DNA from: Haloactinospora alba
GTDB taxonomy: Bacteria; Actinomycetota; Actinomycetes; Streptosporangiales; Streptosporangiaceae
Direction: 5' to 3'
Length of the DNA stretch: 64,000 bases
Assembly: GCF_006717075.1 (NCBI RefSeq)
Contig: NZ_VFQC01000003.1
Location: forward strand, 310,001 to 374,000
Below are positions 2,592 through 8,813 of the stretch, piece by piece; position 1 is the first letter of the stretch, and every line of letters starts with the position of its first letter. The translations under genes were made by a program, and so were the position numbers. The notes under the pieces are model-generated. The model had not been told where the DNA came from and did not search any database. It saw only the letters and a list, made by a program, of their open reading frames with translations.

Positions 2592-2735
2592 ATGGACACC
2601 AACACGCAGTACACGGATGAGGAGCTGACCGTCGCGGTCGAGGAGATCGCCGCCGTTCGTTCCCGAGCCGAACAGCCCTCTGACGGAGGCAGCACCGGCA
2701 AGGGTGACCTCAACGACAACGCCGCCCTTCACTAG
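2592..2735 (+). CDS. Small 47-aa protein, candidate RiPP precursor
   Basis: The ATG at 2592 follows AGGAG (2581-2585) at normal spacing. An in-frame ATG at 2586 is too close to that site. The product begins MDTNTQYTDEELTVAVEEIA, an acidic, helix-forming, leader-like half. It ends in a Gly/Ser/Asp/Asn-rich, Cys-free tail (DGGSTGKGDLNDNAALH). The stop at 2735 is only 9 bases before the GTG of a 2-oxoglutarate oxygenase, so the ORF heads a tightly packed unit with an aldo/keto reductase and an APH-like protein. I do not recognise the family. The precursor call is inferred from size, composition and position. Hydroxylation of tail Asp, Asn or His would be a plausible modification, but nothing in the sequence proves it. 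Confidence 0.55.
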   Translation: MDTNTQYTDEELTVAVEEIAAVRSRAEQPSDGGSTGKGDLNDNAALH

Positions 2736-2744
2736 GAGAGGACT

Positions 2745-3926
2745 GTGACCGCTGACATGATCAGCGGCCGCCTGGGCGGGGACAAGTTCCTCGCCCAGGT
2801 ACTCGGCCGCGAACACCGCCGCTACCCGGCTGGCGAAGACGAGCGAGAGGCGTTCGCCGACTTGCTCACCTGGTCGGCGTTGAACAACCTGCTCGCGACC
2901 CAGCGGCTCGACCCGCCGCGGATGCGGCTTGCCGCAGGTGGGGCCATCGACGCCGGCGAGTACACCCGGCTCCGGGAGTACCGCCGGATGCCCGACTGGA
3001 ATCAGCCCGTCCCGCACCTGTTCCAGCAGCAGCTCCGGGACGGCGCGACGCTGATCCTGGACGCCATCGATGAGATGCATCCGCCGATCGGGCGGCTCAT
3101 CGCCGAACTGGAAGCCTGGCTCAGTACCGGAATCCAGGTGAACGCCTACGCCTCCTGGACCTCGAAGGAGGGATTCGGGGTCCACTGGGACGACCACGAC
3201 GTGCTCGTCCTTCAGGTGTCGGGCCGCAAGCGGTGGCGCATCTACGGGAACACCCGGGTCGCCCCGTTGCACAACGACATCGAGTTCGCCGAGGAGGAGC
3301 CCACCGAGATCATCGACGAGTTCGTCATGGAGCCCGGGGACATCCTGCATGTTCCGCGCGGGTGCTGGCACGCGGTCGCCGCCTCCGAGGGCGAGCCGAG
3401 CCTGCACCTGACGTGCGGCCTGGTGACCACGACCGGCGTGAACTTCCTCCGCTGGATGGTCAACACCCTGGTCGAACACGAGGAGATCAGGGCCGACGTC
3501 CCACGGACGCCGGCTGAGTACGCGTCGTGGACCCGGCGCATCTCCGAGCTGGTAGCGGATCGGCTCCACTCCCCGGAGGTGGTTGAGGAGTACTGGCGCC
3601 ACCAGGACGAGACCGCCCCGGCTCGCCCGGCGTTCAGCCTGCCCGTCGGAGTCACCGGCGAACTGACACTATCCTCCGTCGTCCGCTTCGCCTCCCTGCG
3701 GGGCACCGTCACCGAGAACGACAATGAGGTGGTCTACTCCGCCCAGGGGCGGCGCTGGCGTCTGCCAACCAAGGTCACCCCCGTGGTCACCCACATGCAC
3801 CACAACGGCCCCACCTCGGTCGAGGAGCTGCACGAGCTGGTTCCCGACGTCTCCGAGCAAGCGCTTCTCAGTCTGCTTCGCAGGCTGATGGACGATGGGG
3901 CCTTGGTCTGGGAAGGCGAGACATGA
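2745..3926 (+). CDS. JmjC/cupin_4-type 2-oxoglutarate-dependent oxygenase
   Basis: This 393-aa protein starts at GTG 2745, behind GGAGAGG. It has a JmjC-like double-stranded beta-helix with the iron triad H147-x-D149 (in VHWDDHD) and H209 (in GCWHAV). K162 (in GRKRWRIY) is a likely 2-oxoglutarate ligand, and EPGDILHVPRG is the usual strand before the distal His. The last ~90 residues form a winged-helix-like tail (TSVEELHELVPDVSEQALLS). This layout is known from the ribosomal-protein hydroxylase ROXA family, so an Fe(II) protein or peptide hydroxylase is the best prediction. Its stop overlaps the next start (ATGA), which indicates translational coupling. The substrate is inferred to be the 47-aa peptide upstream. 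Confidence 0.82.
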   Translation: MTADMISGRLGGDKFLAQVLGREHRRYPAGEDEREAFADLLTWSALNNLLATQRLDPPRMRLAAGGAIDAGEYTRLREYRRMPDWNQPVPHLFQQQLRDGATLILDAIDEMHPPIGRLIAELEAWLSTGIQVNAYASWTSKEGFGVHWDDHDVLVLQVSGRKRWRIYGNTRVAPLHNDIEFAEEEPTEIIDEFVMEPGDILHVPRGCWHAVAASEGEPSLHLTCGLVTTTGVNFLRWMVNTLVEHEEIRADVPRTPAEYASWTRRISELVADRLHSPEVVEEYWRHQDETAPARPAFSLPVGVTGELTLSSVVRFASLRGTVTENDNEVVYSAQGRRWRLPTKVTPVVTHMHHNGPTSVEELHELVPDVSEQALLSLLRRLMDDGALVWEGET

Positions 3927-4831
3927 CTGTCCTCGGTATCGGAACCTACCGAAGCCGCGACGCCGCCACTTCGGCGAGCATCGCAGCTTCGGCCGGGTGT
4001 CCCCTCATCGACACCGCCCCCGTGTACGGAAGCGGCACCCACCAGGCGGCGATCGCTCCCGTGCTGCGCGCCCACCCCGAGCTCCGGGTCTCCACCAAGG
4101 TCGGCTACATGACCGACGGACAGGCCCGGGTCGCGCTCACCAGCGAAGCACTCACCGACGAGGACGCCGCTTGCCGCCACAGCATCGCCCCCGACTATGT
4201 GCGCCACCAGGTAACCATGTCGCGGATGGAACTCCAGCGGCCGAAGCCCGAGGTGGTCTACCTGCACAACCCCGAATACCAGTACGAGAACCGGGGCAAC
4301 CTCCACCAGCGCATCCGGTCGGCCTTCGCCGTACTGGAAGAGCTGTACGCCTCGGGTGACATCGGCGGCTACGGCGTTGCTGCCTGGACCGGATTCGACA
4401 CCCAAGCGTTCACGCTTTCCGACCTTCTCCACCTCGCGAAGGAAGCAGCGGGCAGTTCCGAGACCGGGCTGTCCGCGATCCAGCTCCCCGTGTCCATGGT
4501 GAAGGTCGCTCCCATCCGCCAGAGCCTAGAGGGAAGCGGACCCATCGCTCTCGCCTACCAGGCAGGATTGGAGGTGTGGGCTTCGGCGCCCTTTCACGGA
4601 GGGGAACTGCTGTCTCTGGTCACCCCGAAACTCGCCGAGGCGATACAACCCGGAACCGGGTGTACCGAGGCCGCACTGAAGGTCGCAGCCTCGGCCCCGG
4701 GATTGACCGGGGTGCTGGTCAGCACCACGAACTCCGCCCACGTAAAGCAGGCGGCCGACGCGATCCGTGAGCCGCTGCCCGACCACCGACTCAAGGACAT
4801 CTGTGACCTCCTCGACCCACCTACCCGCTGA
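3923..4831 (+). CDS. Aldo/keto reductase family oxidoreductase
   Basis: This 302-aa protein overlaps the oxygenase gene by ATGA. The AKR catalytic tetrad is complete: D30 and Y35 (in DTAPVYGSG), K59 (in STKVGY) and H115 (in VYLHNPE). The family uses NAD(P)H to reduce carbonyls on a TIM-barrel scaffold. AKR enzymes of this length are most often cytosolic and soluble, and no membrane segment is seen. The neighbours suggest action on an oxidised group introduced by the upstream oxygenase, or on another intermediate of the same pathway (inference). Its 3' end overlaps the next gene by 29 bases. Confidence 0.85.
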   Translation: MTVLGIGTYRSRDAATSASIAASAGCPLIDTAPVYGSGTHQAAIAPVLRAHPELRVSTKVGYMTDGQARVALTSEALTDEDAACRHSIAPDYVRHQVTMSRMELQRPKPEVVYLHNPEYQYENRGNLHQRIRSAFAVLEELYASGDIGGYGVAAWTGFDTQAFTLSDLLHLAKEAAGSSETGLSAIQLPVSMVKVAPIRQSLEGSGPIALAYQAGLEVWASAPFHGGELLSLVTPKLAEAIQPGTGCTEAALKVAASAPGLTGVLVSTTNSAHVKQAADAIREPLPDHRLKDICDLLDPPTR

Positions 4832-5645
4832 CCTGACCGACCGATGGCACCAGGCAGCCGAGCGCCTCGGCGCTTCCGCACCCGCTGATACTCCGCTGCA
4901 TTCCGGGATGGGCGGACGGACGCTGAGCGGCCCCGTAGTGACGACCGATGGACTCTCGGCCTGGCTGCGGCTGATGGTCGCTCCCAAACCGGAGGGAAAG
5001 ATCTGGGAGGGCGCGGCTCTCGCCGACGCCCTGCTCGGTGACGCAATCTCGCGCCCGGTGATTCTCGCTGAACACACCTGGCACGAGGACGGAGCGGCGT
5101 TCCAAGCCAACCTGTGGACGCGTCTTCGCGGGGAAATCCTGTCGCCGACGCCGGACCTGTCGGCCCCGGCACCCGTGGACGAGCAGTGGTGGCGGGATAT
5201 ACGCGCCTGCGTGGACGAGGTCCGGACATCTGCGGACCCTTCGGGCCGCGGAGTGATGACCCAGGCATACATCGACCGGATTCCCCGGTTCATCCCCGCC
5301 CTGGAAGGCGCAGACCTCACCGTGTCCCGCTGGGAGGCCGCCCACGGGGACCTCCACTGGGCCAATCTCACCCGAGATCCGCTGGAGATCATCGACTGGG
5401 AGGGCTGGGGAGCGGCCCCCGCCGGATACGACGCGGCCGTCCTACTGGCCTACGCTCTGCCCGCCCCGGACACAGCTGCGAAAGTACGCGAGATGTTCGG
5501 CGACATGCTGAACACGGAGCACGGCCGCCTCGCCCAACTGGTGATCTGTGCGGAGATCATCCAGGCGTCGGAGCGCGACGACGTCCATGCCCGGTTGAAG
5601 CCTCATGCAGAACGGCTCGCTGACGAGATACTCGCTCTGCAGTAG
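4803..5645 (+). CDS. Aminoglycoside phosphotransferase (APH)-fold protein
   Basis: GTG at 4803 gives 280 aa and a 29-base overlap with the AKR gene. An in-frame ATG at 4767 would lie deeper inside that gene and is less likely. The C-lobe has the APH catalytic loop HGDLHWANL (H181, D183) and the metal-binding IIDWEGWG (D198). The N-lobe Gly-rich loop is weak (MGGRTLSG). APH-fold proteins phosphorylate small molecules for resistance or detoxification. In some RiPP pathways (class V lanthipeptides, thioviridamide-like) they phosphorylate Ser/Thr before elimination. Its place as last gene of the four-gene unit fits a peptide-tailoring or self-resistance role, and the sequence cannot separate these. 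Confidence 0.75.
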   Translation: MTSSTHLPADLTDRWHQAAERLGASAPADTPLHSGMGGRTLSGPVVTTDGLSAWLRLMVAPKPEGKIWEGAALADALLGDAISRPVILAEHTWHEDGAAFQANLWTRLRGEILSPTPDLSAPAPVDEQWWRDIRACVDEVRTSADPSGRGVMTQAYIDRIPRFIPALEGADLTVSRWEAAHGDLHWANLTRDPLEIIDWEGWGAAPAGYDAAVLLAYALPAPDTAAKVREMFGDMLNTEHGRLAQLVICAEIIQASERDDVHARLKPHAERLADEILALQ

Positions 5646-5662: not shown

Positions 5663-6155
5663 GAACCGGGTTATGGGTCGGGCCACCGACCGGCGTGCGG
5701 ATTTCTGCGCCTACACTGCGAACCGGCTCACCTCCACACACTCGGTAGTGGTGTTGGAGGACCCGAACAGCCCGGCACGCGGGTGCGCCAGAAATCGGGG
5801 CTGAACCGGGCCATCCTCGACAAAGGGGTGGCACCGCCTGGAAACCGCCCTGACCAGTGCGGCCCGCTGCACCGGCACCCGCATCATCACGGTCACCCCG
5901 GCGTTGACGTCTCAGACGTGTCACGAGTGTGGGCACACGGACCCGGAATCCCGCGAAAGCCAAGCGGTTTTCCAGTGCACCCGGTGTTCGCACGAGTGCC
6001 ACGCCGACATCAACGCTGCCAAGAACATCCTTAGCGCCGCAGGGCATGTGGTGCCAGCCTGTGGAGACCTCGCCGTTGGGCGGTCTGCGAAGCAGGAACC
6101 TCCGGCCCCGCGAGGGTCACCGGGCCGACCAGTGGTGGGAATCCCCCGACTTTAG
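5663..6155 (+). pseudogene. TnpB (IS200/IS605/IS607-type) remnant
   Basis: The fragments match the second half of an OrfB/TnpB protein. RRADFCAYTANRLTSTHSVV and VLEDPN (RuvC region) come first, then KSGLNRAILD in a shifted frame, TGTRIITVTPALTSQTCHEC, the zinc finger CHECGHTD...CTRCSHECH, and ADINAAKNIL. The last piece reads in one frame from about 5904 to 6155 and ends in GIPRL, the usual TnpB C-terminus. The N-terminal half is absent and there are at least two frame changes, so it cannot be active. No TnpA was found. The bases just after it (6140-6175) resemble the right end of such elements, where the guide RNA 3' end normally lies. Confidence 0.75.
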
Positions 6156-6297
6156 CCATGGAGAGGAAGCCAAGGTGGTGTTCTTCGGTACGCGCCTCTT
6201 GAGCGTGGGCCGGGCGGCTGTCCAGCAACGACAGTCCCCGGTGTGTCCGGGGACTTAGGTTTCTTACCTTGTGGCCAGGGGCGCCGCGGGGCGAGTG

Positions 6298-6477
6298 TTA
6301 CAGGTTCTCGGTGCGGACCTTGTTGAGGAACGCCTTCCATTCGGAGGCGGGGAACGACAGGTGGCCAGCCTGGCGGTTCTGGGTGTCGCGGACAGCAGTG
6401 ACAGGTCCTTCGGCGACCTCGACGCAATTCGTGTCGCCTTTGCTGTAGCTGGACTTGTGCCAGTCCGTGTCAACCAT
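6298..6477 (-). CDS. DUF397 domain protein
   Basis: This 59-aa protein begins MVDTDWHKSSYSKGDTNCVE and carries RDTQNRQAGHLSFPASEWKA, the typical DUF397 pattern (W-K-SSYS, C-VEVA, R-DS/N). These small actinobacterial proteins are nearly always encoded right after an XRE/DUF5753 regulator and are thought to work with it. Here the ATG overlaps the stop of such a gene at 6470-6477 (ATGGTTGA). That upstream gene is a pseudogene, so this copy is an orphan partner. Confidence 0.85.
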   Translation of the reverse strand: MVDTDWHKSSYSKGDTNCVEVAEGPVTAVRDTQNRQAGHLSFPASEWKAFLNKVRTENL

Positions 6478-6800
6478 CGAACTCTCCCTGTATCTTTCTG
6501 AGCGCTTCGTGGGACTGATCGGGAGGAAGGGCCACGCCCCTCAGTTCAGCCATCAGTGCAACATGCTCGTCGATCACCTGTTGCTCGAGGACAACTCCGC
6601 CCCTACACGAGTTTCCTGGTAGAGCATCAGCCCAGCATCAGGAACTCGCAGTAGCTTGAATCCACTGTCCAATCCTGGGTGGTTCCACGTGTCAGCAGGG
6701 ACCACGAGGACTTCGATCTTGCTCCGGGCCGTCATCTCTCGGAGACGATCAAGCTGTTGCACCATGGTGTCACGTGAGCCGAGTCGCCGACGCAGCTTTA
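6470..6800 (-). pseudogene. DUF5753 regulator fragment, 5'-truncated and frameshifted
   Basis: Only the C-terminal third of an XRE/DUF5753 protein remains. RRRLGSRDTMVQQLDRLRE starts at about 6798, followed by LVVPADTWNHPGLDSGFKLL and MLYQETRVG. A frame change near 6600 leads to VLEQQVIDEHVALMAELRGV and ALPPDQSHEAL before the TGA at 6470. The HTH and the first half of the ligand domain are missing. The break lies next to the solitary CRISPR-like repeat at 6808-6837, which suggests a recombination or insertion event. Confidence 0.7.
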
Positions 6801-6807
6801 CTCTCGG

Positions 6808-6837
6808 GTCTCCTCATCACCCCTGGAAGGATGTGAC
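6808..6837 (+). repeat. Solitary degenerate CRISPR-like repeat
   Basis: The sequence GTCTCCTCATCACCCCTGGA followed by AGGATGTGAC matches the repeats at 9087-9117 and 9151-9181 with a few changes. The preceding flank (TTTAC-CTCGG) also matches the bases before 9087. No second copy is found next to it. It lies exactly at the broken end of the DUF5753 pseudogene. Confidence 0.6.
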
Positions 6838-6944
6838 GGTGGTCTGACTCCGGCGTTTTCCAGGAAGGCCACGTGCGCGTGGCGCACGACAGGTGGCCGA
6901 CCGCGAGAGTAGTGGCGGCGATCCGGTCCGGTGGGGTGGGGTGG

Positions 6945-7538
6945 TCAGTTCCCGGTACCGGTGCGGGGCTTGGCGCGGATGTGCATGCGTTCGCCCTGGC
7001 GGCCGAAGATACTGAGGATCTCGACGGCGTCGTCGCCGGTGCTGCCGAACCAGTGCGGCAGCCGGGTGTCGAACTCGGCGGCCTCACCCGTATCCAGCAC
7101 CAGGTCGTGCTCGGCCAGAACCAGGCGCAGCCGTCCGGACAGGACGTAGAGCCACTCGTATCCCTCGTGGGTGCAGGGTTCCGGGGTGCTGCGGGTGGTC
7201 GGGATGACCTGTTTGAAGGTGTGCAGCGGGCCGGGTTGGCGGGTCAGCGGAACGACGGTGCTGCCGTTCAGGCTTTTCGGCTTGAGCCGGATGCGGGGGT
7301 CGCCGACGTCGGGAGCACCGACCAGTTCGTCCAGGGGAACCTGGTGGGCCTGGGATATGGGAAGCAGCAGTTCCAGGCTGGGGCGGCGCTGTCCGGTCTC
7401 CAGCCGGGAGAGGGTGCTCTTGGCGATCCCGGTGGCCTCGGCCAGGGCGGCGAGGGTGACGCCGCGCTGGGCGCGTAGGTGCTGAAGGCGGGGACCGACC
7501 TCGGTCAGGGCCTGGGCGATGTCGGGTGTGTGCTCCAC
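6945..7538 (-). CDS. XRE-family regulator with C-terminal cupin domain
   Basis: GTG at 7538 gives 197 aa starting (M)EHTPDIAQALTEVGPRL. Longer in-frame starts would cross the operator and the MFS start. The HTH is GVTLAALAEATGIAKSTLSR, near residues 24-43. The second half is a cupin_2 barrel (EPCTHEGYEWLYVLSGRLRL, TGEAAEFDTRLPHWFG) that binds a small ligand or metal. Such XRE-cupin repressors commonly control a divergent exporter or catabolic gene. Here the MFS transporter starts 79 bases away on the other strand, and a large symmetric dyad (7561-7592) sits between them. It probably represses the transporter and itself until an effector binds. Confidence 0.85.
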   Translation of the reverse strand: MEHTPDIAQALTEVGPRLQHLRAQRGVTLAALAEATGIAKSTLSRLETGQRRPSLELLLPISQAHQVPLDELVGAPDVGDPRIRLKPKSLNGSTVVPLTRQPGPLHTFKQVIPTTRSTPEPCTHEGYEWLYVLSGRLRLVLAEHDLVLDTGEAAEFDTRLPHWFGSTGDDAVEILSIFGRQGERMHIRAKPRTGTGN

Positions 7539-7560
7539 ACCCCCATCACACCCCCTCGTC

Positions 7561-7592
7561 CCGAAAACAGCAACGAAAATTGCCGGATTCGG
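7561..7592. promoter_or_regulatory. Composite palindromic operator between XRE-cupin and MFS genes
   Basis: Two nested inverted repeats share one centre (7576.5): CCGAA (7561-7565) with TTCGG (7588-7592), and GCAA (7570-7573) with TTGC (7580-7583). The 32-bp site lies between the divergent starts at 7538 and 7617. It is the probable binding site of the XRE-cupin dimer. Confidence 0.6.
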
Positions 7593-7616
7593 AACAGCGG
7601 CCGCACGGTGGTCGCC

Positions 7617-8813
7617 ATGAGCGGAACCCAAACCACACCGCACGTACCGGAATCCCGCACGAAACTGCCACCGAGTGTGTACCTGCTCGGGTTCAGCCTG
7701 TTCGCGATGGGGAGCGCGGAGTTCCTGGTGGCCGGGGTCCTACCGGCGATCTCCGACGATTTCGGGATCACACTGTCCTCCGCCGGTGCGATGATCACGG
7801 CGTTCGCCCTCGGCGTGGTCATCGGCGGCCCGCCCCTGGCCGTCCTGACCCTGCGCTGGCCGCGAAGAACCACGCTGGTGGCGACGCAGGCGGTCTTCGC
7901 CGCGTCGGTGGCGATAGGTCTTGTCACTGACAGCTTCGGCGTACTACTGGCCACCCGCTTCGTCTCCGGTCTCGCCTACGCCGGGTACTTCGCGGTCGCG
8001 GCGGTCACCGCGATCAGCCTGGTCACCCCCGAACGCACCGCCCGTGCCTCCGGCGTCGTCGTCAGTGGTCTCACCCTCGCCATGGTCGCCGGCGGGCCGG
8101 CCAGTGCCCTGCTCAGCCACTTCACCGGCTGGCGCGGCGGTTTCTGGGCCGTCGTCGCTCTCACCGCCGTCGGCGCTGTCCTGACCCTCGCCGCCGTGCC
8201 AGCGACCAGTACCGACGAGAAACCCAGTGTGCGGCGGGAATTGCGCACCATGCGGCAACCGCGGCTGTGGGGCGTCTTCGCCGCGACTCTTCTGACCACC
8301 GGCGCCTACATGACCTCCTATAACTACCTCGCGGCGTTCCTGACCGGCGTCACCGGTATACCCGCGGTGTGGGTACCCGCTGTGCTGACACTGTTCGGCG
8401 CTGGCGCGTTCCTCGGTATCTCCATCGGGGGAAGGATCGCCGACAGCCGTCCCCACCACGCGCTACTTACCGGGGCAGTCGGGATCGTGGTCTGTTCCGT
8501 TCTGCTCGCGACGCTGGCCCCCTACGCCCTGGCCGTCGTCTTGCTCGTCCTGCTTCTCGGGATCGCGGGGTTCGTGCTGAACCCGCCCATATACGGGCGG
8601 GTGTTCACCATCGCGGCGCAGGCGCCCACTCTGGCGGGAGCCACCACCGTCTCGGCGTTCCAGCTCGGCATCAGCCTCGTGCCCGTACTTGCGGGAGCGG
8701 CCCTCACCGCCGGTGCCGGTACGGCCGTCATCCCCTGGGTCGGGGGTGGCCTGGCTCTGGTCGCGATCCCGTTCATCCTCGTTGATCGGATAGTGGCCCG
8801 TCACCGGTCCTAG
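7617..8813 (+). CDS. MFS transporter (DHA1/arabinose-efflux-like)
   Basis: ATG at 7617 gives 398 aa. An upstream in-frame extension to 7479 would run through the divergent regulator and the operator. The protein has about 12 hydrophobic segments, beginning VYLLGFSLFAMGSAEFLVAG. The family signature GVVIGGPPLAVLTLRWPRR lies in the loop after helix 2, and there is a central hydrophilic loop near residues 195-215 (STDEKPSVRRELRTMRQPRL). It is a proton-driven drug or sugar exporter of the inner membrane. It is divergent from the XRE-cupin regulator and probably induced when that repressor senses its ligand. The substrate is unknown. Confidence 0.85.
   Translation: MSGTQTTPHVPESRTKLPPSVYLLGFSLFAMGSAEFLVAGVLPAISDDFGITLSSAGAMITAFALGVVIGGPPLAVLTLRWPRRTTLVATQAVFAASVAIGLVTDSFGVLLATRFVSGLAYAGYFAVAAVTAISLVTPERTARASGVVVSGLTLAMVAGGPASALLSHFTGWRGGFWAVVALTAVGAVLTLAAVPATSTDEKPSVRRELRTMRQPRLWGVFAATLLTTGAYMTSYNYLAAFLTGVTGIPAVWVPAVLTLFGAGAFLGISIGGRIADSRPHHALLTGAVGIVVCSVLLATLAPYALAVVLLVLLLGIAGFVLNPPIYGRVFTIAAQAPTLAGATTVSAFQLGISLVPVLAGAALTAGAGTAVIPWVGGGLALVAIPFILVDRIVARHRS

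Follow-up and report, generated by a model that had tools for sequence, protein, structure and literature searches.

What is made by a block of four closely packed genes in the actinomycete Haloactinospora alba? The block (2592-5645) lies in the window analysed here, a 64,000-nt stretch of assembly GCF_006717075.1 (contig NZ_VFQC01000003.1, positions 310,001-374,000, forward strand). Unless stated otherwise coordinates are window positions, and all features described in the window are on the plus strand. An earlier note had taken a tiny open reading frame (ORF) followed by tailoring-type genes as the sign of a pathway for a ribosomally synthesized and post-translationally modified peptide (RiPP). 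The comparative data agree with it: judged from sequence, the block is probably a RiPP-type cassette (probability roughly 0.8). It occurs in many soil actinobacteria and looks like an undescribed pathway for a modified ribosomal peptide.

The first gene is a short ORF for a precursor-like peptide of 47 aa (2592-2735; ATG start, TAG stop), with a ribosome site, GAGGAG (2580-2585), 6 bases 5' of the ATG at 2592. Nine bases after its stop begins the ORF of a 393-aa JmjC_2 2-oxoglutarate/Fe oxygenase (JmjC; 2745-3926; PF08007, 100.9 bits, 5e-29), whose stop shares a 4-base overlap (3923-3926) with the start of a 302-aa aldo/keto reductase (AKR; 3923-4831; PF00248 Aldo_ket_red, 74 bits, 1.4e-20). 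The last gene encodes a 292-aa APH-fold kinase (4767-5645), assigned by its fold model and by an APH family match of 22.9 bits, slightly below the cut-off of 23.2. Its ORF starts inside the AKR gene (overlap 4767-4831). The in-frame GTG at 4803 may be an alternative, and possibly the true, start, because the start in many homologues lies 17-29 bases ahead of the AKR stop and because residues 1-19 of the APH model are disordered. The four genes form a single tight operon, with the ribosome site, the 9-base gap and the successive overlaps that the earlier note had described.

Is the short ORF a real gene? A scan of genome contigs found 74 loci with a JmjC relative, 75 with the window, and the surroundings of each were searched by tblastn with the window peptide, with no motif required. 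A match was found directly 5' of JmjC at 66 of the 74 loci outside the window, four of them weak (L063, L065, L088 and L094; E 0.006-0.011). Counting the window, 66 of these 67 peptides contain the strict core [SP]DGG[SG][TS]G[KR][STG]DxND (one has P for S), and the remaining peptide, from L090, has the variant SDNTGGRTDGNDT. Two further peptides were read from reading frames (L081, SDNTAGKSDGND; L089, SDGGGTAKSDGND). A related short ORF therefore lies just 5' of JmjC at 69/75 loci (66 strict cores and 3 variants). It is lacking at six loci: L104, the distant relatives L095 and L105, and three where the JmjC match is only partial (L098, L101 and L103, the last with a weak peptide match at a distance of 2.2 kb). 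The earlier note had made its reading depend on the short ORF being kept in frame beside homologous enzymes; it is so kept at these 69 loci, and the objection from an absent ORF therefore falls away. No NCBIfam model was found up to E 1 for the window peptide, nor for five relatives submitted with it.

The rest of the cassette is conserved along with the peptide. All four genes are present in order, on one strand and with short gaps at 56 of the 66 peptide loci outside the window, and 49 of these 56 have the 4-base overlap between JmjC and AKR. Among the ten exceptions, L092 and L102 run into a contig end, and L042, L052, L088 and L099 have displaced frames or gaps in the cassette. AKR and APH are both missing in L080, there is no APH match in L078, and in L085 and L094 AKR alone is missing and the kinase is kept.

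Searches that started from the peptide gave the same association. With the window peptide as query, a match was found in 8 of 394 genomes of the class, and all 8 adjoin a JmjC match. A profile built from 23 chosen peptides matched in 15 of the 394, with 13 strong matches in two families and two weak ones. The weak match in L194 looks spurious; that in L193 is a distant relative, with the peptide MAAESDELVVAVEELAAVRDRGETAHSDGAVGDSGENRDG immediately 5' of AKR and APH close by (L193, ~5911-7750). The same profile matched in 49 of 343 sampled genomes of Streptomyces (the genus of G650, S. cinerochromogenes), so well-studied strains may harbour the product without its having been noticed. A JmjC match lies beside the peptide in 29 of 30 fetched Streptomyces loci, some of the matches being partial (e.g. 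L130, L139, L145); the exception is L137. A chance ORF is ruled out by the peptide conservation and linkage counts.

Within the peptide, residues 30-42 (SDGGSTGKGDLND, 2679-2717) are the conserved core. The 66 strict cores comprise 20 distinct amino-acid sequences. The pattern was drawn up after the tblastn peptides had been seen, and because D, GG, G, K/R, D and ND are written into it, the constancy of these within the set is no result; the fixed residues are present in every peptide found by tblastn alone except that of L090. Across all variants the first D and the closing D-x-N-D are constant, and GG, Arg/Lys and, once, the preceding G vary. Other Streptomyces cores read SDGGSTGVSD[TS]ND and SDVSSGRSDGND. 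Among distinct sequences the core shows 0.26 synonymous and 0.16 non-synonymous differences per site, and the 20 residues preceding it show 0.46 and 0.42. The peptide terminates at ND in 44/66, and the NAALH tail of the window peptide is not shared. There is no aromatic residue and no Cys in the 66 strict cores; a further relative, L028, has a core Cys. By eye, core position 9 (S/T/G) is not linked to the presence of AKR, Gly occurring with and without it. Some tabulated leaders need care: for L045 and L047 the start codon used lies too far downstream, and the L088 leader looks frameshifted.

These data change part of the earlier picture. The earlier note had expected an acidic leader and a variable tail. 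It is the core that is conserved and the leader that varies. Leader charge flips between lineages, and acidic leaders are confined to Nocardiopsis and some Actinomadura relatives. The Gly/Asp/Asn/His-rich tail that had drawn attention survives in part: the Asp/Asn/Gly core is conserved and the final His is not shared.

The catalytic residues named in the earlier note are present and conserved. In an alignment of 70 of the 75 JmjC sequences (five short ones were excluded) the iron triad H147-x-D149...H209 is invariant in 70/70. Each residue of the AKR tetrad (D30, Y35, K59, H115) is found in 61/62 homologues, and in 22/22 of a chosen set; the protein is divergent, with only distant matches in solved-structure profile searches (best 3.4e-8). 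The kinase carries an HGDxxxxN motif and a metal-site Asp in the APH fold, with H193, D195 and D210 in 62/62 homologues and N200 in 61/62. Its sequence gave no match in a solved-structure search. Its model (predicted local distance difference test, pLDDT, 91) has a complete kinase fold and matches APH(4)-Ia (Z 18.1, 248 aligned, root-mean-square deviation, rmsd, 3.7), as the APH-fold assignment had proposed. No PADLOC defence match was found for the three enzymes at 0.01.

The nearest solved folds to the predicted JmjC structure are NO66 (Z 24.4, 368 aligned, rmsd 6.5), MINA53 (24.2) and YcfD (21.0). The protein could therefore be a ribosomal-protein oxygenase of that kind, with the short ORF a mere regulatory upstream peptide or protein partner. 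JmjC and these enzymes share a two-domain layout, in which the catalytic fold is joined to a winged-helix domain at the C-terminus (Z 20-24), but identity is 17-20% over the aligned part, and the JmjC gene, unlike theirs, stands with genes for a precursor-like peptide, an AKR and a kinase. This explanation is very unlikely. The peptide core is conserved across genera and is found almost only beside this JmjC, JmjC is linked to peptide, AKR and APH, and its gene is accessory, any JmjC match at 1e-20 being present in 104 of 297 genomes of the family, mostly with 30-40% identity.

How might a maturation enzyme hold its substrate? RiPP recognition elements (RREs) are defined by strands followed by three helices (bbb-aaa order), and leaders pair as a strand with RRE strand 3, with one known exception, according to excerpts of PMC12710340. 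The predicted C-terminal domain of JmjC (residues ~306-393, 3660-3923) has this order of strands and three helices, and gave a weak HxlR winged-helix match (E 0.055). A chain of peptide, stop replaced by Gly, and JmjC was folded with 41 rows. The model has a mean pLDDT of 86, with an average of 84 for leader residues 11-20 and values below 50 for residues 23-49, and places a strand at peptide residues 15-18, within a candidate recognition segment (residues 12-20, LTVAVEEIA, 2625-2651). In the enzyme, residues 336-341 (3750-3767) are the predicted strand preceding the first helix of the C-terminal domain.

The charges of the two segments mirror each other. Leader net charge was compared with that of each 9-residue JmjC segment at 57 loci, which were kept after exclusion of L088, L042, L052, L044, L045, L047, L080 and JmjC proteins <370 aa. 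Residues 336-344 gave the lowest rank correlation of 381 (-0.93). Nocardiopsis, for example, combines AVEEI with GRRWRLP, and many Streptomyces combine ARRRI with NEWEMA. Over 58 loci the correlation was -0.72 with the whole C-terminal domain and +0.41 with the catalytic domain. The leader/strand correlation arises mostly between clades. The mirroring is support for the recognition model, not proof.

Several observations weigh against a RiPP pathway or against its recognition step. In the fused model the leader is covalently attached to JmjC, and the partner of the leader strand is not readable from the output. Independent contrasts weaken the charge link: segments starting at 331-336 give -0.27 to -0.37 (all segments: mean -0.03, standard deviation 0.13), a stronger value of -0.52 appears at 153-154 in the catalytic domain, and the segment at 53 reaches -0.34. 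Within 15 kb, L192 (the L137 locus) has the peptide without any of the three enzymes, and in the distant L193 AKR and APH are present and a JmjC match is not. Neither a transporter nor a leader peptidase was seen among the clusters neighbouring the cassette at the 75 loci (~6 kb). Lastly, conservation is higher in the core than in the leader, which differs from many bioactive RiPPs.

The last of these suggests a fixed biological job. One could also suppose that the peptide acts unmodified, as a signal for the helix-turn-helix (HTH) or TPR regulators encoded upstream, with the enzymes serving another task in the same regulon. Of 70 loci with sufficient flank, 53 have regulator-type clusters upstream, against 2 of 59 with such clusters downstream, a count that leans upstream since these clusters were picked after the neighbours had been tabulated. 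This alternative is highly improbable given the spacing, the translational overlap and the tight linkage with modifying-type enzymes, together with the predicted leader strand and the charge swap. One regulator family was also checked for density in four genomes, with 1-2 matches each, too small for a control. Gene clusters found in six or more loci are mostly upstream of the cassette; several are HTH regulators, of different families in different lineages. Non-regulator neighbours exist too, e.g. a methyltransferase in 10 loci.

On the RiPP reading, the short ORF would be a precursor whose N-terminus varies, with L-x-x-[AS]-x-x-x-[IV] as the recognition segment and, at the C-terminal end, a core with the consensus S-D-x(3-4)-G-x-[STG]-D-x-N-D across the variants. 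The RRE-like winged-helix domain of JmjC would hold it, the leader probably being added beside strand 336-341. JmjC would then hydroxylate one or more core residues; our guess is a conserved Asp or Asn. The AKR may carry out a redox step on the modified core, followed or accompanied by phosphorylation by the APH-fold kinase, these roles and their order again being guesses. Arg as a fixed hydroxylation site, as in YcfD, is unlikely; the Arg/Lys position is Val in 8 of 12 Streptomyces peptides read.

A particular version of this pathway would end in oxidative release. Hydroxylation at a backbone alpha position would lead to a break in the backbone, AKR would reduce the aldehyde or keto group left by the break, and the alcohol would be phosphorylated by the kinase. 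Such a route would give AKR and kinase a job and would account for the absence of a peptidase among the genes seen with the cassette. It also has a precedent, in that other 2-oxoglutarate enzymes of RiPP pathways are reported to cleave a peptide backbone oxidatively (PMC12636437). As pure inference it is unlikely, the more so as L085 and L094 are without AKR yet keep the kinase, and the distant L193 is without a JmjC match.

What the product does is a guess. The small variation of the core and the frequent presence of HTH-type regulators upstream of the RiPP-type cassette speak more for a signal, metal ligand or cofactor than for a diversified antibiotic.

Does the cassette belong to a known class? 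The earlier note knew of no named class with this gene set, and neither this precursor nor this gene set was found described in the open PMC literature searched. Class V lanthipeptide and thioamitide pathways use an LxmK-type kinase paired with a HopA1-type lyase, and have Cys in the core. The likeness is an APH-fold kinase in a peptide pathway, and the LxmKY entry 9dk1 is among the structure matches of the kinase (Z 14.9). In contrast to those pathways, no conserved second partner was seen beyond the cassette (HopA1 itself was not searched for), and the strict cores here are free of Cys.

JmjC hydroxylases in RiPP pathways and RRE-like folds on PF08007 proteins are already known. In the biphenomycin pathway the JmjC-type hydroxylases BipG and PbsQ act on ornithine (excerpts of PMC12707348 and PMC12257519). 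As there, a JmjC/cupin-type 2-oxoglutarate hydroxylase is encoded here with a short precursor on which it is predicted to act. The biphenomycin clusters, as far as those excerpts describe them, add an MNIO, a B12 radical SAM enzyme, an arginase and a TldD peptidase and work on an aromatic core, whereas the present strict cores are without aromatics and no extra gene cluster accompanies the cassette in more than 16/75 loci. RRE-like folds have been noted on PF08007 proteins, and the RRE-JmjC fusions of PMC12710340 share with the present enzyme the combination of PF08007 and a bbb-aaa domain; their bacterial homologues are said to occur in RiPP-like contexts, but the excerpts available name neither a precursor family nor an AKR or APH alongside. 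What is named here is the precursor family, the recognition model and the three-enzyme set.

The genome of H. alba encodes a second JmjC, 34% identical to the first, in a different cassette (G000:C1 ~1934744-1941111; L106:6744-13111). It consists of an S9 prolyl oligopeptidase, a 35-residue peptide MDQIEIEVEDLSEVTSRDITAGGDNDGTDSSSDFI, JmjC and an FhuF-like protein. The sequence of this second peptide family is MDPIEVEVEDL-x-EVTSRDITAGGDSDGTDSSSDFI. Of 200 genomes of the family, 41 gave a match to a profile built from four of these peptides. In 30 loci fetched from them, the stretch contains an S9 match in all 30 and a JmjC match in 29. The peptide hardly varies in the 30 read. One guess at the product is a ribosomal metal ligand.

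With at least two little-varying peptides beside such enzymes, it is tentatively proposed that many actinobacterial PF08007 "ribosomal oxygenases" could be RiPP maturases, each a JmjC hydroxylase with an RRE-like domain, leading to fixed products. This broader idea is possible rather than probable. If it were true, the products would be, for example, metal ligands, cofactors or signals, and the winged-helix domain of human NO66 and MINA53 would be kin to a RiPP recognition domain, so that the JmjC/RRE link would connect bacterial peptide maturation with the human ribosomal oxygenase family.

Other JmjC relatives carry yet different peptides (L109, L110, L114, L115). L114 and L115 contain a distant version of the cassette, in which a peptide with SDPTGTSVGDDGENRDG is followed by JmjC (in L115, peptide ~8610-8760 and JmjC from 8770); AKR is ~23% and APH ~30% identical to those of the window. 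The JmjC relative of L030/L109 has one in-frame TGA in its search row, and the upstream peptide ends TDNDGND.

Outside the cassette the surroundings are less constant. The limit of 16/75 loci given above applies to a range of ~6 kb, in which not all clusters were named. One cluster that reaches it is that of an RsbW-like HATPase_c_2 regulatory protein (808-1347; PF13581, 1.5e-14). Between it and the peptide lies a TPR protein in two frames (1528-2483), detected by tblastn as pieces at 1528-1917 and 1914-2405 in different frames. Its homologue in L032 is a single intact ORF of 356 aa; the window copy is frameshifted near 1914-1917, through either decay or sequencing error. Just behind the cassette, positions 5904-6155 encode what we take to be the zinc-ribbon-like end of a TnpB/OrfB-type transposon protein, an apparent remnant.

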